Below, piece by piece: positions 193-26,453 of a stretch of 37,703 bases of DNA. The notes below the pieces were generated by a model. It made no database searches. It was not told the origin of the DNA and worked only from the letters and a program-made list of their open reading frames with translations. Every line of letters begins with the position of its first letter. Within the stretch, counting starts at the first letter, position 1. The position numbers were made by a program, and so were the translations under genes. The stretch lies in the NCBI GenBank assembly GCA_021817345.1, contig JAKAVC010000106.1, positions 1 through 37,703 on the forward strand, in the 5' to 3' direction. This DNA comes from Deltaproteobacteria bacterium (GTDB lineage: Bacteria; Desulfobacterota; Binatia; Binatales; Binataceae).

Positions 193-247
193 CCGGCGCG
201 GCCGGGCAAGGGCAAATCGCCGTCCTGGCCGCGCCGGTTGTTTTATT
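193..247 (+). terminator. Rho-independent terminator between convergent genes
   Basis: An 11-bp perfect inverted repeat (193-203 CCGGCGCGGCC with 227-237 GGCCGCGCCGG) encloses a 23-base loop and is followed by the T-rich run TTGTTTTATT (238-247). It sits between the stop of the plus-strand partial gene and the stop of the minus-strand gene ending at 243. The T-run is on the plus-strand side, so it most likely ends the plus-strand transcript. The loop is long, so efficiency is uncertain. Confidence 0.65.
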
Positions 248-734
248 CGCGGCGGCGCGCAGGTCTTTCGGCGGGTGGGCGCTTTCGCTTGCCGCGAAAC
301 GGCGCAAGCTTCTTTAGCGCGTCCATCACGGCTTTGGCCTCGGCCTTTACCGATTCGGGGTCGTGTCCGCGTTCCTCGATGACGCGCGCGACCTCAGCAA
401 TCGTTTTTGCGTAATCGTTCCTGAAGTGCCGGTTGATCTCCTTCCACGGGATTGCGCTCAGCGCCTCGACGGTCTTCGGGCGTGGGCGGTAAAGCCCGCG
501 CGCAAGCAGCACCGCGATCCCCGGATAGCCAAGATAACCCTGCCAGTACGACGCGTTGTCATTCGAGGAAATCTCGTGAAGGTCGGGCGAGTTCTCGACC
601 TCGTAGGTCTTGTCGCCCTCCGAGGAGACGACGGCCGCGCGGGTTTCGTCCTTAAGCGTTACGCGCCCGTCGCCGAGTGCGCCGAGCGCCTCGTACACCT
701 TGACGAGCGGCGGCATCTTCCACGGCTCGGCCAT
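243..734 (-). CDS. Conserved-looking hypothetical protein, 163 aa
   Basis: I do not recognise a family. The start is set at the ATG at 734. The frame stays open to a TTG at 788, which would add 18 residues, so the N-terminus is uncertain. The sequence looks like real soluble protein: an N-terminal half with KVYEALGALGDGRV and DLHEISSNDNASYWQGYLGYPGIAVL, then a helical, charged C-terminal half ending in a Lys/Arg-rich tail. No signal peptide or membrane segment is visible. The early part resembles a small alpha/beta domain, but no catalytic motif stands out. It is divergent from the GST gene (855), so the roughly 120 bases between them must hold both promoters. The competing plus-strand frame at 363-803 is Arg-rich and judged a shadow. 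Confidence 0.7.
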   Translation of the reverse strand: MAEPWKMPPLVKVYEALGALGDGRVTLKDETRAAVVSSEGDKTYEVENSPDLHEISSNDNASYWQGYLGYPGIAVLLARGLYRPRPKTVEALSAIPWKEINRHFRNDYAKTIAEVARVIEERGHDPESVKAEAKAVMDALKKLAPFRGKRKRPPAERPARRRE

Positions 735-840
735 GCTTTTCTCTATTGCGGAGCGGACGCGATGGGGCAAGTCCGGCAAGTCCCGCAAGCCATTTCGGCT
801 TGACGGTCAAACGCGCCGGAATCTAACATCGCGGATGTCC

Positions 841-854: not shown

Positions 855-1469
855 ATGCTGAGGCTTTTCGACTACAAGCCGTGACCGTATGCGCGCAAAA
901 CGCGCATCGCCCTTTTGGAAAAAGGGCTCCAATGGGAAACCACGTGGCTTGACCTGCCCAAGGGCGAGCACAAGAAGCCCGAATACCTTGCGATAAACCC
1001 GCTGGGCAAGGTGCCGGCGCTCATCGACGACGCCGTCGTCGTTCACGACTCAACGATAATCAACGAGTATCTCGAGGATAGCTTTCCAAAGGCGCCGCCG
1101 CTTCTGCCCAGGGATCCCGCGATGAAGGCGCGGGCGCGCTCGCTTGAGGATTACGCGGACGCCTACCTGGCGCCCTCGCTCTACAAGATTCTGCGCGAGA
1201 TGCGAAAGCCCGAAGCCGAGCGCGACCGGGAGCGGCTCAGGGAAGGCGAGCAGGAAGTGCTGAAACACTTCGCCTACCTCGACGGACAACTGAAAGGGCG
1301 GCAGTTCTTCGCCGGGATGTTCAGCGTTGCGGATATTTCGTTTATCCCGCAGCTTTCGAACTACGAACGGACGGGCTACAAAATCTCCGACGAGTTTCCC
1401 AACCTGAAGGGATGGTGGGAACGGATGAAGGCGCGTCCGAGCTACGCCGCGAGCATGCCCACCGATTGA
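855..1469 (+). CDS. Glutathione S-transferase with in-frame TGA at the active-site position (candidate selenoprotein)
   Basis: Read through the TGA at 882-884 this is a 204-residue GST. The N-terminus is MLRLFDYKP-(TGA)-PYARKTRIALLEKG, the usual beta1-alpha1 segment of the thioredoxin-fold domain. The TGA is residue 10, where many GST-like proteins have the Ser or Cys that activates glutathione. The rest is normal: NPLGKVPALIDD (cis-Pro region), DSTIINEYLED (the gamma-glutamyl-binding Glu/Asp-Ser region) and an all-helical C-terminal domain with FSVADISFIPQL. An SD at 841-845 supports the ATG at 855. A start after the TGA (TTG 915) lacks an SD and would remove the glutathione-site strand and helix. 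Two perfect hairpins directly follow the TGA (889-927). Sec insertion is therefore my preferred reading; a nonsense mutation or a sequencing error from Ser or Cys is the alternative. Sec-containing GST homologues have, as I recall, been reported from marine metagenomes. Confidence 0.75.
889..927 (+). promoter_or_regulatory. Tandem hairpins after the TGA, SECIS-like
   Basis: Two perfect hairpins lie inside the coding sequence just after the TGA. Hairpin 1 pairs 889-895 (ATGCGCG) with 901-907 (CGCGCAT) around the loop CAAAA. Hairpin 2 pairs 909-916 (GCCCTTTT) with 920-927 (AAAAGGGC) around the loop GGA at 917-919. One base separates them. Bacterial SECIS elements are described as stem-loops with a G in the first two loop bases and the apical loop about 16-37 nt after the UGA. 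Hairpin 2 has G at loop positions 1 and 2, and 32 bases lie between the TGA and its loop. There is no T-run after it, so a terminator is unlikely. The assignment is inferred from geometry only. Confidence 0.5.
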
Positions 1470-1520: not shown

Positions 1521-1985
1521 ATGGCTGGTCAGCCGATCGGTAAGCTCGACCATATCGGAATCGCGGTAAACAATCTCGCCGTGGCGCGCGCGTTCTGGGA
1601 GAACACGATGGGCGCGCGGTTCATGTACGAATGGGAGAATCCCGAGGCGGGTTACAAGCTCGTCGAGCTTGAGCTCGCCGGGCTCACCGTCGAACTCCTG
1701 GAGCCGCTCGGCGGGAATTCATTCCTGCGCAAATTTATCGACAGGCACGGCGAGGGGATGCATCACATGACCTTCGCCCTGCCCGACGTGAAGAGCAAGG
1801 CGGCGGAACTGAAGGCGCGCGGCGTCCGCGTGGTGGACGAACACGAATTCTCGCCAACGTCCTACGAATGTTTCATCTCGCCGCGCTCGAGCCACGGCGT
1901 CCTGATTCAGCTCGGTTCCGGCTATCCGACGCTCGCGAACGCGGCCGAATGGGCGAAGGCGCCCGGCAAGCCTCAGGCCGAGTAG
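1521..1985 (+). CDS. VOC-family protein, methylmalonyl-CoA epimerase-like
   Basis: This 154-residue single-domain protein has the vicinal-oxygen-chelate fold pattern. It opens with KLDHIGIAVNNLAVARAFWE (a beta strand with a metal-binding His), continues with VELELAGLTVELLEPLG and GEGMHHMTFALPDV (second His), and ends with SPRSSHGVLIQLG, where epimerases and glyoxalases usually carry a metal-binding Glu; here the position reads Gln in VLIQLG. Length and motif order match methylmalonyl-CoA epimerase and related VOC proteins, but substrate cannot be fixed from sequence. The SD AAGGAG (1504-1509) lies 11 bases before the ATG. It follows the GST by 51 bases, so both may be one transcript. Its last 13 bases overlap the convergent SDR gene. 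Confidence 0.8.
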   Translation: MAGQPIGKLDHIGIAVNNLAVARAFWENTMGARFMYEWENPEAGYKLVELELAGLTVELLEPLGGNSFLRKFIDRHGEGMHHMTFALPDVKSKAAELKARGVRVVDEHEFSPTSYECFISPRSSHGVLIQLGSGYPTLANAAEWAKAPGKPQAE

Positions 1986-2922: not shown

Positions 2923-4602
2923 ATGAAAGACCTCATCGTTCCCATTATTTCTGCGGCGATCGAACGGGCCCATGCCGCCGGCAGGCTCAAATCCGCGCCG
3001 TCCGGCGAGATTGCTGTCGAAGAACCGAAGGATCCGTCGCACGGCGATGCCGCGACGAACGTCGCGCTCGCGATGGCGCGGGCCGAAGGAATGCCGCCAC
3101 GCAAAATAGCGGAAACGCTCCGTGAATTCATCGAGATTCCCCCCGAAATCAGGGAAGTCTCGGTCGCCGGTCCGGGGTTCATCAATTTCCGGATGGCGCC
3201 GCTTTACTGGCATCGCGAGATGCGCCGGGCGGCGGCGATGCGCGAGGCGTACTTTCGCCCGCGCAAATGGAAGATTCGCGAAGGCGGCAACGACACCGTA
3301 CAGGTCGAGTTCCTCTCCGCAAATCCGACCGGGCCGCTGACCGTGGGACACGGCCGAAACGCGGTGCTGGGCGATACACTCGCGCGGCTTTACGAAGCTG
3401 CGGGCTTTGCCGTTACGCGCGAGTACTATTTCAACAACGGCGGCCGCCAGATGCGGCTGCTCGGCGAATCGGTGCGCGCGCGCTATCTGCAGGAACTCGG
3501 ACGCGAGGCGACGCTGCCCGAAGACGGCTACCAGGGCGAGTATATCCGCGAGATCGCGCGCGAACTGGTCAGACAGCACGGCGCAAGTCTTGCCGATTCC
3601 GCGGAACTGGAAGTCTTCCGCGCCGCCGCCGAGCAGGCGATCTTCGCCGACATCCGCAGGACCTGCGAACGGCTCGGAATCCGCTTCGACGTTTATACCA
3701 ACGAACTCGACCTCGTGCGCGACGGCAAGGTTGCCGAGGTGCTTGCGGGGCTTCGAGAGCGCGGACTCGTCGCCGAATACGACGGCGCGGTATGGCTTCG
3801 CGCTGAGCCGCTCGGCCTGCCCAAGGACCGCGCGCTGGTCCGCTCGGGAGGCGAGCAGGAACCGATCTACCGCACCCCCGATATCGCCTATCATATGGAC
3901 AAACTGCGCCGCGGCTTCGACCTGGTGATCGACGTTTTCGGCGCTGACCATCTGTCCGAGCACGAGGACGTAATCGCGGCGGTGCGCGCGCTCGGCGGCG
4001 AGACTTCGCGCATCCGCGCGATCATCTACCAGTTCGTTACGCTGACGCGCGGCGGCGAGAAGGTGAAGATGTCCACGCGCAGGGCGACCTACGTCACCCT
4101 GGAAGAGCTGATCGACGAGGTCGGCTCGGACGTGGCGCGTTTTTTCTTCCTGTTCCGCAAGCACAACAGCCATCTCGACTTCGACCTCGATCTCGCCAAG
4201 AAGCAGGCGCCCGAGAACCCGGTTTTCTATGTGCAATACGCGCACGCGCGCCTTGCGAGCGTCTTTCGCGAGGCCGAGAAGGCCGGCCTTGCGCTGCCGG
4301 CCGACGACGCGGCGATCGATCTTTCGCTTCTTTCGGACGAGGAGATCGAACTGACCAAGCGCGCGCTCAAGCTGGCCGAGGTTTCCACGCTGGCGGCGCG
4401 CGAACTGGAGCCGCATCGGATTCCGTTCCATCTCCTCGAACTGGCCGGCGACTTCCATCGCTACTACAACAAGCCAACCAACCGTATAATCGGTCCGGAG
4501 CGCGAACTGAGTCTCGCGCGGCTTTACCTGGCCGGATTGCTCAAGTGCGCAATCGCGGCGGGTCTTGGATTGCTCGGGGTGAGTTCGCCGGAGCGGATGT
4601 GA
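2923..4602 (+). CDS. argS: Arginyl-tRNA synthetase
   Basis: Class I aminoacyl-tRNA synthetase that charges tRNA-Arg with arginine in the cytoplasm. At 559 residues it has the family's usual length. An N-terminal Add1 domain contains DPSHGDAATNVAL and VAGPGFINF. The HIGH-type signature is NPTGPLTVGHGRN around residues 135-145. A KMSKS-like KMSTR lies near residue 382 (GGEKVKMSTRR). The C-terminal DALR anticodon-binding domain follows YVQYAHARLASV and ends with HRYYNKPTNRI. The ATG lies 12 bases before the next gene's partner start downstream (4602 to 4615), so argS and the SPOR gene are probably cotranscribed. A TTAACA at 2876-2881 is a possible -35, but no good -10 follows it. Confidence 0.97.
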   Translation: MKDLIVPIISAAIERAHAAGRLKSAPSGEIAVEEPKDPSHGDAATNVALAMARAEGMPPRKIAETLREFIEIPPEIREVSVAGPGFINFRMAPLYWHREMRRAAAMREAYFRPRKWKIREGGNDTVQVEFLSANPTGPLTVGHGRNAVLGDTLARLYEAAGFAVTREYYFNNGGRQMRLLGESVRARYLQELGREATLPEDGYQGEYIREIARELVRQHGASLADSAELEVFRAAAEQAIFADIRRTCERLGIRFDVYTNELDLVRDGKVAEVLAGLRERGLVAEYDGAVWLRAEPLGLPKDRALVRSGGEQEPIYRTPDIAYHMDKLRRGFDLVIDVFGADHLSEHEDVIAAVRALGGETSRIRAIIYQFVTLTRGGEKVKMSTRRATYVTLEELIDEVGSDVARFFFLFRKHNSHLDFDLDLAKKQAPENPVFYVQYAHARLASVFREAEKAGLALPADDAAIDLSLLSDEEIELTKRALKLAEVSTLAARELEPHRIPFHLLELAGDFHRYYNKPTNRIIGPERELSLARLYLAGLLKCAIAAGLGLLGVSSPERM

Positions 4603-5581: not shown

Positions 5582-7093
5582 ATGACCCTTACACCAGGCG
5601 AGAGCGAGTTCGAGGCGCTGGCATCCCGGGGATACAACCTGATCCCGGTAAGCCGAGAGATTCCCGCGGACCTTGAGACGCCCGTGTCGGCCTTTTTGAA
5701 GGTCGCCCGTGGCGAGTACGCCTTTCTGCTCGAAAGCGTGCGCGGCGGCGAGAAGTGGGGCCGTTACACGTTCCTCGGCTCGGAGCCCGCGATGGTGATT
5801 CGGGCGCGCGGCGCTCAGACCGATATCATCCGTCCCGGACGCGGAGTCGAGTCGCGCTCGGCGCCCAATCCGTTCGAGGAACTCCGGCGCGAGGTCAAGC
5901 GCTTCAAGGCGCCCGAGGTTGCGGGACTGCCTCGATTCTTCGGCGGCGCGGTCGGATTTCTCGCCTACGATATCGTGCGATGCTTCGAGCCGAAAATCCC
6001 CGCGCGCGCCAAGGACGATCTCGGCACGCCCGATCTGTACATGATGTTCACGGACACGGTGCTCGTGTTCGACAACGTCCGCCAATCGCTCAGGATAATC
6101 GCCAACGTTGCACTTGACGAGTTCGATTCGACCCACGCCGCCTACGAAAGCGCGCGGCGCAAAATCGACGAGATGGCCGGGCGGCTCGCCGGTCCGATCG
6201 CACTTCCGCGCCTGGAGAATCCCCCCGTCTCACGCGCGGCGGACGCCGGTATCACCTCGAACCTGACGCGCGAGGCCTACATGGCGAACGTGCTGCGCGC
6301 CAAGGAGTACATCGCGGCCGGCGACATCATCCAGGTGGTTCCCTCGCAGCGCTTCGAGGCTCCGCTCGAAGTGCATCCGTTCAACCTTTACCGCAGCCTT
6401 CGCACGATCAATCCGTCGCCGTACATGTTTTACCTCCGGCTCGGCGACCATACGCTGGTCGGCGCGTCGCCCGAGGTGATGGTCCGTGTCGAAGGGCGCG
6501 ACGTCACGCTTCGCCCGATAGCGGGCACGCGCCGGCGCGGCGCGAGCGAGGAGGAGGACCTCGCGCTCGAGCGCGAGCTGCTCGCCGATCCCAAGGAGCG
6601 CGCCGAGCACGTGATGCTGGTCGATCTCGGGCGCAACGACGTTGGCCGCGTCGCGAAAATCGGTTCGGTTCACGTGAGCGAGCTGATGGTCGTCGAACGA
6701 TACTCGCACGTGATGCATATCGTCTCGAACGTGAAAGGAACGCTGCGCGACGAATGCGACGCCTTCGACGCGTTCCGCGCGACCTTTCCGCAGGGAACCG
6801 TTTCGGGCGCGCCGAAAATCCGCGCGATGGAGATAATCGACGAGCTGGAACCGGCGCGCCGGGGCGTTTACGCGGGCGCGGTTGGATATTTCAGCTACAC
6901 CGGCAACACCGACACCGCGATCGCGCTGCGCACGCTTTTGGTCAAGAACAACCGCGTCTATATCCAGGCGGGCGGCGGCGTGGTCGCCGATTCCGACCCC
7001 GCCGCCGAGTACGAGGAGTCGGTCAACAAGGCGCGCGCTATGATCCGCGCGCTCAGCGCCGGCCGCGAGTTCGAGGCGGCCGCCACGAGGTAG
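5582..7093 (+). CDS. trpE: Anthranilate synthase component I
   Basis: Converts chorismate and ammonia (from TrpG) to anthranilate, the first step of tryptophan synthesis. At 503 residues it matches the family. The N-terminal region has the LLES motif of the tryptophan feedback site (FLLESVRGGEKWGRYTFLG). The C-terminal chorismate-binding domain has GRNDVGRV, MHIVSNVKG, FPQGTVSGAPKIRAMEIID and the ending AGGGVVADSDPAAEYEES. The ATG at 5582 has GGGAG (5569-5573) 8 bases upstream. It is the first structural gene after the attenuator, and trpG follows by 6 bases. The intact LLES indicates allosteric inhibition by Trp in addition to attenuation. Confidence 0.97.
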   Translation: MTLTPGESEFEALASRGYNLIPVSREIPADLETPVSAFLKVARGEYAFLLESVRGGEKWGRYTFLGSEPAMVIRARGAQTDIIRPGRGVESRSAPNPFEELRREVKRFKAPEVAGLPRFFGGAVGFLAYDIVRCFEPKIPARAKDDLGTPDLYMMFTDTVLVFDNVRQSLRIIANVALDEFDSTHAAYESARRKIDEMAGRLAGPIALPRLENPPVSRAADAGITSNLTREAYMANVLRAKEYIAAGDIIQVVPSQRFEAPLEVHPFNLYRSLRTINPSPYMFYLRLGDHTLVGASPEVMVRVEGRDVTLRPIAGTRRRGASEEEDLALERELLADPKERAEHVMLVDLGRNDVGRVAKIGSVHVSELMVVERYSHVMHIVSNVKGTLRDECDAFDAFRATFPQGTVSGAPKIRAMEIIDELEPARRGVYAGAVGYFSYTGNTDTAIALRTLLVKNNRVYIQAGGGVVADSDPAAEYEESVNKARAMIRALSAGREFEAAATR

Positions 7094-7099
7094 GCTCCG

Positions 7100-7678
7100 A
7101 TGGGCACGATACTGATGATCGACAATTACGACTCGTTTACCTACAACCTCGTGCAGTACCTCGGCGAACTCGGGGCCGCTCTCAAGGTGGTGCGCAACGA
7201 CGCGATCGACGTGCCCGGCGTGCGCGCGCTCAAGCCCGCGGCCGTGGTGATCTCGCCCGGGCCGTGCACGCCGCGCGAAGCGGGCGTTTCGGTCGCGGTA
7301 ATCCGCGAGATGGCGGGCGAAGTGCCGATCCTCGGCGTCTGCCTCGGCCATCAGTGTATCGGCGAGGCGTTCGGCGCAAGGGTCGTGCGCGCGTGGAGGC
7401 TGATGCACGGAAAAACCTCGCCTGTGTTCCATGACGGAAAGACGCTGTTCGAGGGACTGCCCAACCCGTTCGAGGCGATGCGCTATCATTCGCTCGTGGT
7501 CGAACCCGAATCGATTCCGTCCTGTCTCGAAGTCAGCGCCCATACCGCCGAGGGCGAGGTGATGGGCCTGCGCCATCGCCAGCACTTCGTCGAGGGCGTC
7601 CAGTTCCATCCCGAGTCGATCGGCACGGGCGACGGCAAGGCCCTGCTGCGCAACTTCCTGAGGAGGGTCGGCGCGTGA
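7100..7678 (+). CDS. trpG: Anthranilate synthase component II (glutamine amidotransferase)
   Basis: A class I glutamine amidotransferase that supplies ammonia to TrpE. At 192 residues it is a stand-alone subunit, not fused to TrpD or TrpE. Motifs: [20 protein letters not shown] at the N-terminus, [11 protein letters not shown] (oxyanion region), the nucleophile elbow GVCLGHQ with Cys81, and VQFHPESI with the catalytic His and Glu. It could also serve folate synthesis as PabA, but its position inside the trp operon favours TrpG. Its TGA overlaps the GTG of trpD. Confidence 0.95.
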
Positions 7679-8715
7679 CGGCGCTTGGCGAAGCGTTCCA
7701 TCGCGTGCTCGCCGGAGCGTCGCTTGATGCCGACGAGGCCGAGCGCGCAATCGGCGAGGCGCTCGACGGCGGCGCTCCCGAGGGCCTGGTTGCGGCGTTC
7801 CTCGTCGCGCTCAAGCTCAAGGGCGAATCGGCGGGCGAGCTGGCGGGCGGCGCGCGCGCGATGCGCGCGCGGGCGCGCGCCGTCGCTCTCAACGGCGGCA
7901 ACGTGCTCGACACCGCAGGCACCGGCGGCGACGGAGCCGGCACGTTCAACATCTCGACCGGCGCGGCGCTTATCGCGGCTGCGGCCGGGGTCGCGGTCGC
8001 GAAGCATGGAAACCGCGCGGTGAGCGGGCGGGTCGGCGCCGCCGACGTGCTCGAACGGATGGGTGTCAGGATCGAGCTCGAGCCGCGGGGGTTGCAGCGA
8101 TGCCTTGAAAGCGCCGGTGCGTGCTTCATCTTTGCCCCCGCGTACCATCCCGCGCTCGCGCGATGGGCCGCGCTCAGGCGCGCGCTCGGCACGCGCACGC
8201 TGTTCAACCTGATCGCGCCGCTCTCCAATCCAGCCTTTCCGCGCCGCCAGTTGCTGGGCGTCGCCGATCCGCGCCTGTTCCGCGCGATGGCCGAGGCGCT
8301 TGCGGCGCTCGGCGTCGACCATGCGATGGTGGTGCACGGGCTCGACGGGCTCGACGAAATATCGCTCGGCGATTCGACCCGCGTCGTGGAAATCGAACGC
8401 GGAGATATTCGCGAATACGAAATCGAGCCCGGGGATTTCGGTATCGCGCGGAAGCGACCGCAGGAGCTGTTCGCCGCCGATGCCGCGCAGGCGACCGCGA
8501 TGCTCCGGGCGGCGCTTGCGGGCGGGCAGGGGCCGGCGCAAGATGTGCTCGCGCTCAACGGCGGCGCGGCGATCTACGCCGGCGGCAGGGCCTCTTCACT
8601 TGCCGGGGGAGTGCGGATGGCGCGCGAGATAATCGCCGCGGGCCGCGCGCTCGAAGTCGTGGAGCGGATGCGGCGCGCAAGTCATGAGCCGTCGCCGGAC
8701 GGAGCCGCGGAATGA
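7675..8715 (+). CDS. trpD: Anthranilate phosphoribosyltransferase
   Basis: Transfers the phosphoribosyl group of PRPP to anthranilate. At 346 residues it matches family length. It has the glycine-rich PRPP site [17 protein letters not shown], the anthranilate-site [19 protein letters not shown], and [25 protein letters not shown]. It starts with GTG at 7675, overlapping the trpG stop as GTGA, with AGGAGGG (7661-7667) 7 bases upstream. This implies translational coupling. Many homologues read VSS where this has VSG in the anthranilate loop, a conservative difference. Confidence 0.95.
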
Positions 8716-9509
8716 GCTCGATCCTTGACAAAATTTTCGAAGCCAAGCGTGCGGAACTGTCCGAGACCCGGAGCGCGACTCCGGACGACGCGGTTATCCG
8801 CGCCGCTTCCAGGATGCCGGCGCCGCGAGACTTCGTCGCGGCGCTTCGCGCGCGCCGTCCCGCGATAATCGCCGAGGTAAAGCGCGCCTCTCCGAGCAAG
8901 GGCGATATCCTGCCCAATCTCGATCCGGCCTTTATCGCGCGCGAATACCAGCGATCCGGCGCGGCTGCCGTCTCGGTTCTTACCGATCGCCATTTCAAAG
9001 GGTCGCTCGACGACCTTCGCGCGGTGCGTGCGGCGGTCGAGTCGCCCGTGCTGCGCAAGGATTTCATGTTCGACCCCTACCAGGTGTACGAGGCGCGGGC
9101 GGCGGGCGCCGACTGTATCCTGCTGATCGTCGCGATGCTCGACGACCGCACGCTCGGCCTGCTCCATCGCCTTGCGCATGAACTCGGGATGGCGGCGCTC
9201 GTCGAGGTCCACAACGAAAACGAATTCTCACGCGCCGAACGGATGGGAGCCCGGCTTATCGGAATCAACAACCGCGACCTCCACACCTTCGTTACCGATA
9301 TCGCGGTGACGGAGCGGCTGCTGCGCGACTATCGCGCCGACGCCCTGGTGGTTGCGGAGAGCGGAATCGATTCGCCCGAACATATCAGGAGACTCGATCG
9401 CGCCGGCGCCGGCGCGTTCCTCGTCGGCGAGAGCCTGCTCCGCGGCGGAAATCCCGCCGGACGGCTCGGCGAACTGCTCGGCGCGCTCGGCGAGGCGGCT
9501 TCGCGATGA
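8712..9509 (+). CDS. trpC: Indole-3-glycerol-phosphate synthase
   Basis: Closes the ring of carboxyphenylamino-deoxyribulose phosphate to indole-3-glycerol phosphate. The 265-residue TIM barrel has PAIIAEVKRASPSKGDI (catalytic Glu and Lys), VLRKDFMFDPYQVYEARAAG (catalytic Lys), EVHNENEF, GINNRDLHTF and VVAESGI. It is not fused to TrpF. The ATG overlaps the trpD stop (ATGA, 8712-8715), with GGAG (8701-8704) 7 bases upstream, and its own stop overlaps the trpF start. Confidence 0.95.
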   Translation: MSSILDKIFEAKRAELSETRSATPDDAVIRAASRMPAPRDFVAALRARRPAIIAEVKRASPSKGDILPNLDPAFIAREYQRSGAAAVSVLTDRHFKGSLDDLRAVRAAVESPVLRKDFMFDPYQVYEARAAGADCILLIVAMLDDRTLGLLHRLAHELGMAALVEVHNENEFSRAERMGARLIGINNRDLHTFVTDIAVTERLLRDYRADALVVAESGIDSPEHIRRLDRAGAGAFLVGESLLRGGNPAGRLGELLGALGEAASR

Positions 9510-10117
9510 CGGTGCGGGTGAAAATCTGCGGCGTCACGCTGCCTGAGGATGCGGAAGCGGCCGCCTCGATGGGCGCGGACATGATCGGGCTCAACTTCTA
9601 TCCGAAGAGCCCGCGCTTTCTTGAGCTTTCGCGTGCGCGCGAGGTGCGGGCGGCGGCCGGAAGCCGCGTCGCCGTGGTCGGCGTGTTCGTCAACGCGCCG
9701 CGCGAAACGATCGCGGACTATCTCGGCGAGCTTCGCCTCGACATGATTCAATTTCACGGCGACGAGCCCGAGGAATTGCTCGAAGGATGGCCCGTTCCGG
9801 TGGTGCGCGCGCTCAGGTTGCGCCCCGGTGAGAGGTTCGACGCGTCGGCGTCGGCGCGCGCCAGTTATCTGCTCGTCGATACGTTCCATCCCGCGCTTTA
9901 CGGCGGTACCGGACGGGCGCGCTCGTTCTCCGAGCTTGCCGGCGCGAACCTGAGCCGCGTCATCATCTCGGGCGGGCTGACGCCCGACAACGTCGCCGAG
10001 GCCGCCGCCCTTCGTCCATACGCGGTCGATGCCGCCAGCGGCGTTGAATCGGCGCCCGGTGTCAAGGACCATCAGAAACTCAGGAGATTTATCGAGAATG
10101 CCAAGTCTTCCCGATAG
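9506..10117 (+). CDS. trpF: Phosphoribosylanthranilate isomerase
   Basis: Carries out the Amadori rearrangement of phosphoribosylanthranilate. The 203-residue TIM barrel has VKICGVT (catalytic Cys), [28 protein letters not shown] (catalytic Asp), [10 protein letters not shown] and [14 protein letters not shown]. The ATG at 9506 overlaps the trpC stop (ATGA). Its last 20 bases overlap the start of trpB, which has its own SD within trpF. Confidence 0.95.
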
Positions 10118-11291
10118 CCACGGACATTTCGCCGAACACGGCGGGCGTTACGTTGCCGAGACGCTGATGCCGGCGCTGTTCGAACTGGAGAAGGCCTACA
10201 AGGAGGCGCGTCGCGACCCGGCTTTCCGGCGCGAACTGGAAAATTACTCGCGCGAGTACGTCGGCCGGCCGACCCCGCTTCACTTCGCGGCCCATCTTAC
10301 CGAACGCCTCGGCGGCGCGAAGATTTATCTCAAGCGCGAAGACCTTTGCCATACCGGCGCGCACAAGGTGAACAACACGCTCGGGCAGGCTCTGCTCGCG
10401 GTCAGGATGGGCAAGACGCGCATCACGGCCGAGACCGGCGCGGGACAACACGGCGTCGCGACCGCGACCATGGCCGCGTTCTTCAGGCGCGAGTGCGAGG
10501 TCTTCATGGGAAGCCTCGACGTCGAGCGCCAGTCGCTCAACGTCTTCCGAATGAAGCTGCTCGGCGCGAAAGTAACCGCGGTCGATTCCGGAAGCCGAAG
10601 CCTGAAAGACGCGCTCAACGAGGCGCTGCGCGACTGGATCGCGACCGTTCGCGATACCTATTACCTGATCGGCACGGCGGCCGGACCGCATCCGTACCCG
10701 ATGATCGTGCGGGATTTTCAGGCCGTGATCGGACGCGAGGCGCGCCGCCAGATTCTGAAGAAGGAGGGCCGGTTGCCCGACATGCTTGTCGCGTGCGTCA
10801 ACGGCGGTTCCAACGCGATCGGTCTGTTCTATCCGTTCATCAAGGATACAAGCGTAAAGATGGTCGGCGTCGAGGCCGCGGGGCTCGGGCTCAACACCGG
10901 ATCGCACGCGGCGACGCTCAACGCCGGCACGGTCGGCGTGCTGCACGGCAACAAGACCTACCTGCTCCAGGATGAACTCGGGCAGATTCGCGAGACCCAT
11001 TCGATCGCGGCGGGTCTCGATTATCCCGGCGTCGGTCCCGAGCACGCGTGGCTCAAGGATACCGGGCGCGCCACGTATACGGCGGTCACGGACGCGGAGG
11101 CGCTCGAGGCGCTCAAGATGCTCTCCGAGACCGAGGGGATAATCCCGGCGCTCGAGAGCTCACACGCGGTCGCTGAGGCGATAAAGCTCGCGCCCACGAT
11201 GGACAAGGACCGGGTGATGATCGTCAATCTTTCCGGGCGCGGCGACAAGGACATGCAGACCGTCGCGCGTGCGTTCGGCGTGACGCTGTAG
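10098..11291 (+). CDS. trpB: Tryptophan synthase beta subunit
   Basis: PLP-dependent enzyme that joins indole (channelled from TrpA) and serine to form tryptophan. The start at 10098 gives 397 residues, the normal length, and AGGAG (10082-10086) lies 11 bases upstream. The open frame reaches 10029, but those residues belong to trpF. PLP binds Lys90 in [10 protein letters not shown]. The substrate loop [10 protein letters not shown], the phosphate-binding GGSNAIG and the C-terminal LSGRGDKDM are all present. It is the TrpB1 type, which pairs with the trpA that follows. Confidence 0.97.
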
Positions 11292-11306
11292 GACGGAAAA
11301 TCCGAA

Positions 11307-12146
11307 ATGGCGAATTCAGGCAGGATAAGCGCGAAATTCCGGGAACTGAGAGCGCGCGACGAAGCCGCGCTGATACCGTATATCGTCGCGGGCGACCCGG
11401 ATCTCGAAACGACGGCTCGGCTCGTGCTCGAACTGGAGGCGCGCGGCGCCGACCTGATCGAACTCGGCGTTCCGTTTTCCGATCCGATGGCCGACGGCCC
11501 CGCGAATCAGCGCGCGGCCGCGCGCGGGCTTTCCTCGGGCGCGTCGCTCGCGGCGATTCTCTCGATGGTGAAGGAACTCAGGGCGCGCACCGAAATTCCA
11601 ATCGTGCTGTTCGGATATTACAACCCGATTTTCCATTACGGATGCGAGCGGTTTTCGGCGGACGCGGCGCGGGCCGGCGTAGACGCGCTTCTGGTGGTCG
11701 ATCTTCCGCCCGAGGAAGCCGCCGAATTGCAGAAACCGGCGTGCAGGAACGGCCTCGACTTCATCTACCTGCTTGCGCCGACCACGCCGCTCGCCCGCGC
11801 GGAAAGGATCGCGCGCTCCGCGAGCGGCTTTCTGTACTATGTCTCGGTGACCGGCGTGACCGGCGCGCGCGCCGAGCTTGCCACGGACCTCGAAGAGCAT
11901 GTGCGCGGGATCAAGGGCGTGACGGAGCTTCCGGTCGGCGTGGGCTTCGGAATCTCGAATCCCGCGCAGGCGGCGCGGGTGGCGGCGTTTGCCGACGCAG
12001 TGATTGTCGGAAGCGCGCTCTCGCTGGCAATCGAGGCCAATGTACACTCTCCCAATCTGGTCGAGACGCTCGGAGCGATGGTTGGTGCGATGAAGGATGC
12101 GATGAGAACGGCTCGGCGCGGCAGCGAGACCAGCGCCGCCAGGTGA
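11307..12146 (+). CDS. trpA: Tryptophan synthase alpha subunit
   Basis: Cleaves indole-3-glycerol phosphate to indole and glyceraldehyde-3-phosphate. The 279-residue TIM barrel has the catalytic Glu and Asp in LIELGVPFSDPMADGP, VLFGYYNPIFHYG, the flexible-loop region YYVSVTGVTGAR, and the phosphate-binding GVGFGIS and IVGSAL. It follows trpB by 15 bases and precedes accD by 5, so it is inside the same operon. Confidence 0.96.
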   Translation: MANSGRISAKFRELRARDEAALIPYIVAGDPDLETTARLVLELEARGADLIELGVPFSDPMADGPANQRAAARGLSSGASLAAILSMVKELRARTEIPIVLFGYYNPIFHYGCERFSADAARAGVDALLVVDLPPEEAAELQKPACRNGLDFIYLLAPTTPLARAERIARSASGFLYYVSVTGVTGARAELATDLEEHVRGIKGVTELPVGVGFGISNPAQAARVAAFADAVIVGSALSLAIEANVHSPNLVETLGAMVGAMKDAMRTARRGSETSAAR

Positions 12147-16983: not shown

Positions 16984-17445
16984 TCAGCCGTTGGAGGGTG
17001 GCGGAAGTTTAGGCTTCTGGCAGGAGCCTCCGCTGAGGCAACTCAGTCCCGCGCCGAGATAAATCGCCCCGACGCGAAAAGGATAGAAGGCGTAGTCCAG
17101 AGGCGTCTGGATCGGGTCGAAATTCGACGGCGGCGGGGGCCCGGACGGCTCCGTCTCGGCCGAAGTCTGCGTGGTGGCGGGGCTCAGCCGCTGAATCTCC
17201 GCGATTCGGTTGTCGGAACCAAAGACCGCCGATTGTCCGGCCTTGAGCCAGGTATAGCGCAGCATCGCGGGACCGTTCTTACCCGCGGGGGTGATCGTGT
17301 CTTTCAGATCCGGCTCACCCATCGCCGCGACAGCCTGTCCCGGCGTCATTCCGGGTTCCAAGGGTTTCCGCTGCGCCGAGCATGCTCCGATCGCCAGTGC
17401 CATCGCCGCCACGCTGAACCATCGCAGGACCGTTTTCATCGCCAT
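16984..17445 (-). CDS. Outer-membrane-type lipoprotein, SmpA/OmlA-like
   Basis: A 153-residue protein with a lipoprotein signal: a hydrophobic stretch ends in the lipobox IGAC at about residues 19-22, so the mature protein starts at the Cys. The following region, PLEPGMTPGQAVAAMGEPD, matches the GMT-x-x-x-V-x-x-x-x-G-x-P pattern of SmpA/OmlA (BamE-type) domains, with a strand-rich segment LRYTWLKAGQSAVFGSDNRI. The C-terminal part is Pro-rich with two Cys and ends PPPSNG. It follows mlaD by 93 bases on the same strand and may belong to the lipid-transport operon as an outer-membrane partner. That role is inferred from position. Confidence 0.75.
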   Translation of the reverse strand: MAMKTVLRWFSVAAMALAIGACSAQRKPLEPGMTPGQAVAAMGEPDLKDTITPAGKNGPAMLRYTWLKAGQSAVFGSDNRIAEIQRLSPATTQTSAETEPSGPPPPSNFDPIQTPLDYAFYPFRVGAIYLGAGLSCLSGGSCQKPKLPPPSNG

Positions 17446-17538
17446 TACCCCGCAAGGATCCTCCCCCTGCTAACACGCGAGTGCCGCACGGGGCAAGGCG
17501 AGGCCTGTGGAGGACGATAAGCCCGCGAAGATGCGCGG

Positions 17539-18717
17539 TCAGGGGTTCGACGGCGGCGCGGAGCCGGTGGCGGCCGTGTTTGCGCCGGACTGAACGCCTA
17601 TCACCGTCGCCGAAGTGACGGCTTGTGCGGGCCCACACGCATTGATTTCGCCGGAACTGGTTGCAGGCTGGTAGAAGGGATGGGTCAGGCCGTACAGGCC
17701 GTTCATCATCCGGATGCCCCATCCGGCGCTTCCCGACATAAGGTTGGTCGCGTCGCGGTAGAGCGTCGGATCGTTGATTGCGAGGCCGACCGTTCCCTGT
17801 CCGGTGTTGATCTTGTGCAGGATGTCGCGGAGATCGCGCGAGGATTGCAGCATGTTGGCGAGGATCTGGTCGCCGTAGCGCTTGTCCTCGAGCAGCTTGG
17901 GGACCGCGCCCTGGGCCTTGTTGAAGCGCTCCATCAGGACGTCCATTTTGCGCGCGGTGAATTTCATCGCCTCGGCCGCCTGGTTGATATTCGCGAGTAT
18001 GCGCCGGCCGTTGGTACGGCGGCTCAACATCGCGCCCGCCAGTCCTTGGCCACGATTCATCTCGTTCAGGGTCTTGTTCAGCTCGGCAACCAGCAGGTTC
18101 ATGTTCTGCATGGTTTTTTCCACTGTGGCGAGCGAGAACTGCCGCGCCGGCGGCACTCCCGGCTCGCCCTTGATCATCTGGGCAAGAACGCCTTGGCCCT
18201 TCTGGACCGAGTCGAGCAGCGAGCGAAGCGATTCGGAGATCGCGATGGTGTTGGCTATGAGATCGCCGGTGCCCTCTTTCTGGAGCAGCGCCTCGTAGTC
18301 GATCGGGTTTTGCGACGGTATGACCGAGCCGGGCGTTATCGCGGGCGCGCTGGGCGTGCCGGCGGATATCTCGACGTACTTGTCGCCGAGAAGCCCCATC
18401 GTGGCGATCCGCGCGACCGAATCGGCACGGATTCGGTCGAACGCGCGCGCCTCGATCCACATCCGCACGATTACATAGTTGGCGTGCGGATTGCGCGGGA
18501 ACTCGATCGAATAGACCGCGCCTATATTGACTCCGGTAAACATCACCGGGGCGCCGGTTTGGAGCCCGTTGATACGCTGGAAGTGTGCCTGGATAAGGTC
18601 GGTGTGCTTGAACAGCCGCGAGCCGTGGCCGATTGAAAAGATCGCGAAGCACACCAGCGCGATCCCCGCCGCCATCACGACTCCCACGCGCAAGGTCACG
18701 ATAGTTCTTTTCGCCAC
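17539..18717 (-). CDS. mlaD: MlaD-family (MCE domain) substrate-binding protein
   Basis: Periplasmic, inner-membrane-anchored component of an Mla-type lipid ABC transporter. Residues about 12-30 form one membrane segment (VGVVMAAGIALVCFAIFSIG). The MCE domain follows (about 40-120): VMFTGVNIGAVYSIEFP, then GLLGDKYVEISAG. A long helical region (about 140-350) contains VQKGQGVLAQMIKGEPG and repeated helix-turn units, typical of long MCE proteins that form a tunnel or needle. The C-terminus is Ser/Pro-rich. At 392 residues it is longer than E. coli MlaD, about 180. It lies 18 bases after mlaF. Confidence 0.92.
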   Translation of the reverse strand: MAKRTIVTLRVGVVMAAGIALVCFAIFSIGHGSRLFKHTDLIQAHFQRINGLQTGAPVMFTGVNIGAVYSIEFPRNPHANYVIVRMWIEARAFDRIRADSVARIATMGLLGDKYVEISAGTPSAPAITPGSVIPSQNPIDYEALLQKEGTGDLIANTIAISESLRSLLDSVQKGQGVLAQMIKGEPGVPPARQFSLATVEKTMQNMNLLVAELNKTLNEMNRGQGLAGAMLSRRTNGRRILANINQAAEAMKFTARKMDVLMERFNKAQGAVPKLLEDKRYGDQILANMLQSSRDLRDILHKINTGQGTVGLAINDPTLYRDATNLMSGSAGWGIRMMNGLYGLTHPFYQPATSSGEINACGPAQAVTSATVIGVQSGANTAATGSAPPSNP

Positions 18718-18735
18718 AGCGGACTCCGTGTTTTT

Positions 18736-19488
18736 CTAAAGCGCCGTCGTCACGAACTCGCGCATCAATTCGTCGCTGGTGGAACGCACCTCTTCGGCGC
18801 TGCCGCTGAAGCGGATACGACCCTGGTCGAGAAGGGCGAAGCGGTCTCCCACCATGAAGGCGCTTTTGAGATCGTGCGTAACCACGACTGAGGTGAACCC
18901 GAGGCGCGACTGAAGCGAGCGGATCATCAGGTTTATCTTGTGCGTGACGAGCGGATCGAGACCCGTGGTCGGCTCGTCGTACAAGACCGCCTTGGGCTCC
19001 AGCGCGAGCGCGCGCGCCAGCGCCACGCGCTTTTTCATTCCGCCGGAGAGCTCCGCCGGGTAGAGATTGTCGACGCCGGTCAGCTCCACCATCTCGAGCA
19101 CCTCGTGGACGCGCTCGCGCACTTTCTCCTCCGGACCCCATCGATGCTCGACGAGCGGGTAGGCAACGTTGTCGAACACGGTGAGCGAGTCGAACAGCGC
19201 GCCCAACTGGAAGACCATCGAGACCTTCTTGCGCACCTCGTCGAGTTCGTCCTCGCCGAGTTCGCCGAGCGCCTGGCCATCGACGACCACTTCGCCGCGG
19301 TCGGGCCGTTCGAGCCCGTTGATATGGCGCAGCAGGACGGTTTTGCCCTCGCCGCTTGCGCCCAGCACCACCATCGTCTCGCCCTCGAACACGTCGAGAT
19401 CGACGCCGCGCAGCACCTCTTTTGGCCCGAAGCTTTTTTCGAGCCCGCGAATCGAGATGAAGGGGCGGCGGCCGTTGCTCGTTATCAT
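18736..19488 (-). CDS. mlaF: Mla-type ABC transporter ATP-binding protein
   Basis: ATPase of the Mla lipid transporter. The 250 residues contain Walker A GASGEGKTVLL, the Q-loop VFQLGALFDSLTVFDNV (typical of MlaF), the signature LSGGMKKRVALARAL, Walker B AVLYDEPTTGLDP and the switch His in VVVTHD. It overlaps mlaE by 4 bases (ATGA), indicating coupled translation. No MlaB-type STAS partner is visible in this operon. Confidence 0.95.
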   Translation of the reverse strand: MITSNGRRPFISIRGLEKSFGPKEVLRGVDLDVFEGETMVVLGASGEGKTVLLRHINGLERPDRGEVVVDGQALGELGEDELDEVRKKVSMVFQLGALFDSLTVFDNVAYPLVEHRWGPEEKVRERVHEVLEMVELTGVDNLYPAELSGGMKKRVALARALALEPKAVLYDEPTTGLDPLVTHKINLMIRSLQSRLGFTSVVVTHDLKSAFMVGDRFALLDQGRIRFSGSAEEVRSTSDELMREFVTTAL

Positions 19489-20240
19489 AGCTCAAGGAAA
19501 AGCTTGGTCAGGAAGAAGTCGGAGATGAGCACGCTTATCGACGCTGCCACCACCGCCGAGGTTGTCGCGCGGCCCACGCCGTCGGCGCCTCCGCGCGCGC
19601 TCAGTCCCTTGAAGCAGGCGATTATTCCGATGAGATAGCCGAAGAAGATCGACTTGCCGAGCCCGCTCATCAGGTCGCCCAGCGTCACGTTCTGTACCAG
19701 TGAAGCGTAAAAGTAATCGCCGCTCACGCCAAGCTGGGTCACCGAGATGACCCATCCGCCGACGAGCCCGATCGTGTCCGCGATCATCGTCAGCACCGGC
19801 ATCATCAGGATTGTGGCAAGCACTCGCGGCACGACGAGCTTTTTTATCGGGCTGGTCGCCAGCGCGCGCATCGCGTCAATTTGTTCGGTGACCTTCATGG
19901 TGCCGAGCTCGGCGGTGATTCCCGCCCCGACCCGCGCCGCGACCATCAGGGCCGCCAGCACCGGGCCCATCTCGCGCAACAGTGAGATTCCCATGATCCG
20001 GCTCACATAAATCTTCGCTCCGAACTTGGCCAGGAACTGCCCCATCTGGAGCGCCAGCACCATCCCTGAGAAGATCGCGGTAAGATTGACCACGTTGAGC
20101 GAGCGGTAGCCGACGCTGTCCAACTGATCGACCAGTGGCTGCACCTCGAACGGACGGCGCAGCAGGTAACGGAAGAAATCGAACGTGAGGATGCCGATTT
20201 GACCCAGCTCGTCGAGGAACAGGTATACTCGCTCAAACAT
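19485..20240 (-). CDS. mlaE: Mla-type ABC transporter permease
   Basis: Inner-membrane permease of the Mla/YrbE family, 251 residues, with five or six hydrophobic segments. Family motifs are LREMGPVLAALMVAARVGAG, ITAELGTMKVTEQIDAMRAL and GCFKG-like IACFKGLSARGGADGVG. With MlaF and MlaD it forms the core that moves phospholipids between the outer and inner membranes. It is the first gene of the minus-strand operon and is divergent from the GGCT-like gene by 46 bases. Confidence 0.95.
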   Translation of the reverse strand: MFERVYLFLDELGQIGILTFDFFRYLLRRPFEVQPLVDQLDSVGYRSLNVVNLTAIFSGMVLALQMGQFLAKFGAKIYVSRIMGISLLREMGPVLAALMVAARVGAGITAELGTMKVTEQIDAMRALATSPIKKLVVPRVLATILMMPVLTMIADTIGLVGGWVISVTQLGVSGDYFYASLVQNVTLGDLMSGLGKSIFFGYLIGIIACFKGLSARGGADGVGRATTSAVVAASISVLISDFFLTKLFLEL

Positions 20241-25439: not shown

Positions 25440-26453
25440 TCAGGCGCTCAATTCAAGCATCCGCGCCAGCGCCCGCCTTGCGCCGTCACGCACGGATTCG
25501 TCGAGCGTTATCTCGTGCCGCATATGGCGAAGCGAATCGAGCGTGCCCTCCAGCGTGATCATCTTCATGTACTGGCAGAGCTTGCAAGTCTTGAAGAAGC
25601 GCTTGTCCGGCACTTCCATCAAAAGCCGGTCGGAAAGCCCGCATTCGGTCACGATCAGGAACTTCTCCGCCGCGCTGTTCTTCGCGTAACTGATCATCGC
25701 GCTGGTTGACAGCACTGCATCGGCCAGCTTAAGCACGTCGCGCCGGCATTCGGGATGGGCCAGCACCTGGATTCCGGGTATCGAGTCGCGCACCCGCGCG
25801 ATTTCCTCGGGGTTTATCTGATGATGCACGTAGCAGTTGCCGTCCCACGAGATGATCCGCTTGCGGGTCTTGCTCTGCACGTAGTTGGCGAGATTGCGGT
25901 CGGGAACGAACAGGATGTTCTCCGAATCGATCGCCTCGACCACCTTGACCGCGTTCGAAGAAGTGCAGCACGCATCCGAGAGCGCCTTCACGTCGGCCGT
26001 GGTGTTCACGTAGGAGACGACACGAAGGTCGGGGTAGAGCGCCTTCAACTCTTCCTTGCGCTCGGCCAGCGCCTCGGCGGTCACGCTGTCCGCAAGCGAG
26101 CATCCCGCCTTCATGTCCGGCAGAAGCACGGTCCGCTCCGGATTCAGCACCTTGGCGGTCTCGGCCATGAAATGGACGCCGCAGAAAACGATCACCTCGG
26201 CGTCCTCGACCTCTCGCGCGCGGCGCGCCAGCTCCAACGAATCGCCGGTAAAGTCCGCCACCTCGAAAATTTCCGGCCGTTGGTAATTGTGCGCAAGCAC
26301 GACCGCGCGCCGTTTGCGTTTGAGATCGTTTATCTCCTCGACCATCGAGGCGTAACGCTCGCAGGTCTCAAGGTCGTAGGCGTCCTGGCCGAGCGGCGCG
26401 AGCTTTGCGCGCAGTTCGGCGACGCTTGTGGATAGGTTGGCTGCTGCGTTCAT
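25440..26453 (-). CDS. nadA: Quinolinate synthase A
   Basis: Condenses iminoaspartate and dihydroxyacetone phosphate to quinolinate, the second step of de novo NAD synthesis. The 337 residues carry a 4Fe-4S cluster. Likely ligands are Cys118 (KAGCSLAD), Cys207 (NCYVHHQINP) and one of Cys290/Cys293 (CKLCQYMK). VVLAHNYQRPEI and VIVFCGVHFMAETAKVLNP are family signatures. nadB and nadC are not in the window. It is the first gene of a minus-strand series with the nrtR-like gene next. Confidence 0.96.
   Translation of the reverse strand: MNAAANLSTSVAELRAKLAPLGQDAYDLETCERYASMVEEINDLKRKRRAVVLAHNYQRPEIFEVADFTGDSLELARRAREVEDAEVIVFCGVHFMAETAKVLNPERTVLLPDMKAGCSLADSVTAEALAERKEELKALYPDLRVVSYVNTTADVKALSDACCTSSNAVKVVEAIDSENILFVPDRNLANYVQSKTRKRIISWDGNCYVHHQINPEEIARVRDSIPGIQVLAHPECRRDVLKLADAVLSTSAMISYAKNSAAEKFLIVTECGLSDRLLMEVPDKRFFKTCKLCQYMKMITLEGTLDSLRHMRHEITLDESVRDGARRALARMLELSA

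Follow-up and report, generated by a model that had tools for sequence, protein, structure and literature searches.

Glutathione S-transferases (GSTs) containing selenocysteine (Sec) have been known since 2005, when GST was among 15 new selenoprotein families reported by Zhang et al. from the Sargasso Sea data set, with four sequences (PMC1088965). The GOS survey yielded 12 Sec-GST sequences (PMC2398784). A GST-like selenoprotein family also appears in reviews of 2022 and 2026, the latter of which describes the functions of such families as largely uncharacterized. GSTs in which serine was replaced by Sec through engineering have peroxidase activity near that of natural GPx (PMC9944854). We found no papers on selenoproteins or Sec use in the Binatota in the open-access literature.

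The first-pass annotation of the window (the whole 37,703-nucleotide contig analyzed here) proposed, from the sequence alone, a candidate Sec-containing GST at positions 855–1469, and noted that such homologues had been proposed from metagenomes, as the Sargasso Sea and GOS surveys bear out. This gene lies on the plus strand and encodes 204 residues, with an in-frame TGA (882–884) as codon 10, at the GST catalytic position, and a terminal TGA at 1467–1469. A Shine-Dalgarno GGAGG (841–845) is located 9 nt 5' of the ATG at 855, and a GGAGG-like or GAGG-like motif occurs at a comparable position in the 12 orthologues described below. The 194 codons after the internal TGA are open, and the product matches the Pfam families GST_N_2 (7.4e-23) and GST_C (3e-13). 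Sequence and Pfam thus agree with the frame, start, and normal downstream GST region that had been described for the gene.

The list of open reading frames made with translation table 11 contains only a truncated form starting at TTG 915, and the protein could in principle begin there, with the 5' part untranslated. We consider such a start highly improbable. The TTG has no Shine-Dalgarno ahead of it, as had been noted, whereas the ATG does, and codons 1–9 are conserved as protein among the 12 orthologues. The shorter protein had been expected to lack the first strand and helix of the fold; in the structural model, it would lose strand 1 and most of helix 1.

The TGA at codon 10 is conserved without exception. 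Six records 68–85% identical to the gene in the window, all with TGA at codon 10, were obtained in a scan of ~85,000 species genomes of bacteria and archaea, and the remaining matches had at most 44% identity. A search of 41 genomes of the host family identified 12 holders in eight genera, the window's genome included, and each gene has one internal stop, which is always TGA. In none of the 12 orthologues is codon 10 a sense codon or a stop other than TGA. These 12 species-level genomes, whose genes are 68–85% identical to that in the window, make up the orthologue set used throughout. No further holder was found in 148 genomes of the class, a viral collection held no relative of the Sec-GST, and the GSTs in a plasmid collection were all below 60% identity. 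Two other GST matches labeled as having TGA (G028:C363 and G025:C10:183942) were rejected, as both have serine at codon 10; in the former, the TGA falls where the matched region ends on the C-terminal side. The host family probably lies at or near Candidatus Binataceae in the phylum Binatota. One holder record carries this family name, which NCBI places in Binatota, and the others are labeled Deltaproteobacteria or Proteobacteria.

This pattern bears directly on the possibility that the GST gene is dead or was misread, its TGA having arisen by nonsense mutation or through an error in base calling. The frame does have only a single internal stop, as such an error would leave. However, the identical TGA occurs in 12 species-level genomes, including records from independent metagenome projects, so 882–884 is not a sequencing error. 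The frame is otherwise intact, and the changes in codons 2–9 are mostly synonymous. Decayed frames in close relatives, which the first-pass annotation had raised along with sequencing error, are likewise ruled out, the orthologous frames being intact and under purifying selection. Conservation of the exact stop codon in 12 of 12 genes already refutes the pseudogene or error reading, to which we assign a negligible probability.

In a phylogenetic tree, the 12 Sec-GSTs form a single clade (support 100/100), and the group closest to them, with support of 95/73, is a cysteine-type GST from the same class. One tree row, L128_Sec, is mislabeled and has serine at codon 10; the tree's tally of 13 Sec rows and two changes is due to this row. 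In the homologue alignment, the column of the UGA codon has cysteine in 23 rows, serine in 31, and glycine in 55. The cysteine subfamily reads CPYGQK, CPFGQK, or CPFCQK at this position, another group of the class has serine, and more distant proteobacterial GSTs have glycine or serine. The expectation of serine or cysteine at this site therefore holds for the nearest homologues, with the 55 glycine rows belonging to the more distant proteobacterial group. Members of the cysteine subfamily of Binatia (e.g., G000:C80:4747-5343, with CPFGQK) resemble the Sec-GSTs in length, have the same domains, and are 43–49% identical to them, with cysteine exactly at the Sec position. No cysteine orthologue more than 50% identical was found, and the Cys/Sec pair rests on this subfamily at 43–49% identity.

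Downstream of the UGA, the RNA appears to be conserved beyond the protein. A hairpin at 909–927, composed of an 8-bp stem (GCCCUUUU/AAAAGGGC) and a GGA loop (917–919), begins its loop 32 nt from the UGA, and the same GCCCUUUU-GGA-AAAAGGGC hairpin is present in all 12 genes. It satisfies every published constraint on bacterial SECIS (bSECIS) elements (loop 3–9 nt, stem 4–16 bp, a G at one of the first two positions of the loop, spacing 16–37 nt, MFE ≤ -7.5; PMC13188914 Fig. 2), and the hairpin in the window has an energy of -8.9 to -10.1 kcal/mol. These rules are loose, and ~11% of control codon positions in the Sec-GST genes also satisfy them, so the evidence lies in the conservation of the hairpin and not in its presence. 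In the 12-gene codon alignment, pairs with the same residue use the same codon in 87% (0.874) of cases at codons 13–28, as compared with 52% (0.523) from codon 29 to the end and 55% at codons 2–9. None of 100,000 random column resamplings reached the value for codons 13–28, and codons 20–24 (CTT TTG GAA AAA GGG) are invariant in 12 of 12 genes. RNAalifold found no compensatory changes in the stem among the 12 sequences; covariation is not usable as evidence here because the stem hardly varies. No Rfam family exceeded the cut-off in a scan of the region surrounding the gene. The cysteine paralogues have no conserved SECIS-like hairpin at the corresponding downstream site. We interpret the hairpin at 909–927, on which the first-pass annotation was silent, as a bSECIS element that, from its sequence and conservation, lies within the codons specifying helix 1.

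RNAalifold also predicted, from the 12 sequences, a first hairpin (GCGCG-CAAAA-CGCGC, 891–905) between the UGA and the SECIS core. With this stem folded out, 17 nt are left to the loop (885–890, 906–908, and 909–916). The selD gene of the same genome, which has its own in-frame TGA, likewise has 17 nt between UGA and loop and a GGA loop, as compared with the unfolded spacing of 32 nt in the Sec-GST gene. The stem at 891–905 may therefore act as a spacer between the UGA and the SECIS core.

The genome encodes most of the machinery for Sec insertion, for which the first pass had suggested a search and whose absence it had named as grounds for rejecting its proposal. Matches over cut-off were found for selA (contig 79, 579.5 bits), selB (contig 139, 359.7 bits), and selD, which is next to selB (377.9 bits). 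The selD gene (contig 139, 6720–7646, minus strand) is itself a selenoprotein gene, its TGA lying in the context KAAG-TGA-AGKL (KAAG-U-AGKL in the protein) with a short GGUCC-GGA-GGACC hairpin. The fourth component, tRNA-Sec (selC), was not detected in the assembly to which the window belongs, which is 94% complete. The sole match over cut-off in this genome (on C51, 48.9 bits) was rejected, as ARAGORN identified it as tRNA-Ser(UGA). A tRNA-Sec is present at 70–74 bits in 10 of the 12 holders, namely the sister genome of the same genus (G009) and G019, G022, G024, G025, G026, G028, G033, G034, and G039; it was absent from a search of the assembly of holder G035. All seven loci checked with ARAGORN were called SeC, with anticodon UCA. 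Synteny with the selC region of the sister genome ends before selC. Since selD also needs UGA decoding, the missing selC is most simply explained by an assembly gap, though this is not proven. selA was found in 38 of the 41 family genomes, holder G039 being among the three assemblies with no selA match, and the Sec trait is therefore wider than the Sec-GST. Paired copies of tRNA-Sec, which are unusual for selC, were seen ~3–4 kb apart on a single contig in G028 (C298:6544-6635 and 10728-10819) and likewise on one contig in G012 (C18:23069-23160 and 25930-26021).

The missing selC would also suit a UGA that is read through by a near-cognate tRNA (e.g., Trp) and not as Sec, or one that is purely a regulatory stop. 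We regard either as very unlikely, given that this genome has selA, selB, and a selD with its own UGA, that relatives carry tRNA-Sec, that the bSECIS is conserved, and that the sister group has cysteine. A selenium-dependent switch between stop and full-length protein may operate, and it would include Sec insertion. We are thus highly confident that the gene encodes a selenoprotein GST with UGA codon 10 read as Sec, as first proposed from the sequence. Comparison among genomes supports the gene itself, the conservation of its UGA and RNA element, the machinery except for selC in the genome's own assembly, and the predicted fold, and it strongly supports Sec insertion at residue 10. Insertion would follow the usual pathway of bacteria (SelA, SelB, SelD, and tRNA-Sec), directed by the bSECIS hairpin at 909–927.

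An AlphaFold model of the protein (24 sequences) has a pLDDT of 95.8 and a pTM of 0.91. In the model, the protein is a standard GST, and residue 10 is located between strand 1 (residues 2–6) and helix 1 (residues 11–22), directly ahead of the helix at the predicted catalytic position. The features of cytosolic GSTs are present, including a thioredoxin-like N-terminal domain, an all-helical C-terminal domain, a cis-proline site (P54, invariant in the wider alignment), and the acidic-serine motif (D65-S66, in 12 of 12 genes). The closest solved structures are GSTs of the phi, delta, and Nu classes (Z 24–27, ~200 residues, 22–32% identity), which score alike and so do not point to a single class. 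Glutathione binding is plausible, as the genome encodes a glutathione synthetase (366.5 bits).

Sec at the N-terminus of helix 1 would occupy the usual place of the GST catalytic serine or cysteine, where bound glutathione presents its thiol. The selenolate would most likely attack an oxidized substrate (hydroperoxide, disulfide, or electrophile), a selenenyl-sulfide with glutathione would form, and a second glutathione would regenerate the selenolate. Because a selenolate at the GST Cys/Ser site would be paired with glutathione, as in the engineered seleno-GSTs, we lean modestly toward a glutathione-dependent peroxidase or thiol-transferase.

The main functional rival takes account of the neighboring gene. 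A VOC/glyoxalase-superfamily gene (1521–1985, plus strand; Pfam Glyoxalase_4, 7.4e-19) adjoins the Sec-GST gene in 10 of 12 genomes, and is on the same strand in nine. Sec could be inserted in a GST that is chiefly a conjugating, isomerizing, or lyase-type detoxification enzyme, sharing its glutathione adduct with the adjacent VOC/glyoxalase protein. The conserved adjacency favors such a role, as does likeness, below cut-off, to maleylacetoacetate isomerase and FzlA models. The VOC profile, however, is nearest methylmalonyl-CoA epimerase only below cut-off. Moreover, cysteine-type GSTs generally carry out redox chemistry rather than conjugation. The same is generally true of Sec-substituted GSTs (PMC9944854). 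We therefore view a conjugation or isomerase role with a VOC partner as possible, though rather unlikely.

Several other genes occur in the window. Upstream of the Sec-GST gene and divergent from it is an open reading frame of 181 residues (243–788, minus strand) with no Pfam match; four other genomes have a similar sequence (58–83% identity) upstream of their Sec-GST gene. Downstream are argS (2923–4602) and a complete-looking run of tryptophan biosynthesis genes by Pfam (trpE, trpG, trpD, trpC, trpF, trpB, and trpA; 5582–12146, plus strand). A 726-residue frame (17318–19495, minus strand) with no Pfam match may be spurious and opposite real genes.

The Binatota Sec-GST is a member, in a new lineage, of the family first reported from the Sargasso Sea in 2005. 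Like the family of Zhang et al. (COG0625/PF13409) and the GOS sequences, it belongs to the GST family and has an in-frame UGA, a bacterial SECIS, and cysteine homologues, the likeness being one of description. Those sequences are marine, whereas the clade of the window is found only in one Binatota family. The engineered seleno-GSTs (rat theta, human zeta, and others; PMC9944854) similarly have Sec at or near the catalytic serine or cysteine and use glutathione as reductant, but they were produced artificially, through chemical modification or expression in auxotrophs, and the Sec-GST of the window is natural. A more far-reaching reading would join three elements. The conversion of cysteine (or serine) to Sec would have occurred independently in this clade, with no relation to the marine Sec-GSTs. 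The SECIS would comprise two hairpins, the stem at 891–905 bringing the UGA closer to the SelB-binding loop. The protein would be a GST-fold enzyme that acts naturally as a Sec-dependent glutathione peroxidase and forms a conserved pair with a VOC enzyme. We consider this combination speculative and doubtful as a whole.

Sec-GSTs have stood for twenty years in selenoprotein tables with no assigned function. Standard annotation would remove the catalytic residue of the Sec-GST described here. Its compact clade has a clean SECIS, a stable neighbor gene, and a cysteine sister group in the same genomes, and provides a natural enzyme that may be compared with the peroxidase-active seleno-GSTs obtained by engineering. 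Through this gene of a soil bacterium, a kind of protein that was previously only listed from marine metagenomes can be tied to a defined lineage of bacteria, to a conserved signal for Sec insertion, and to a function that can be tested.
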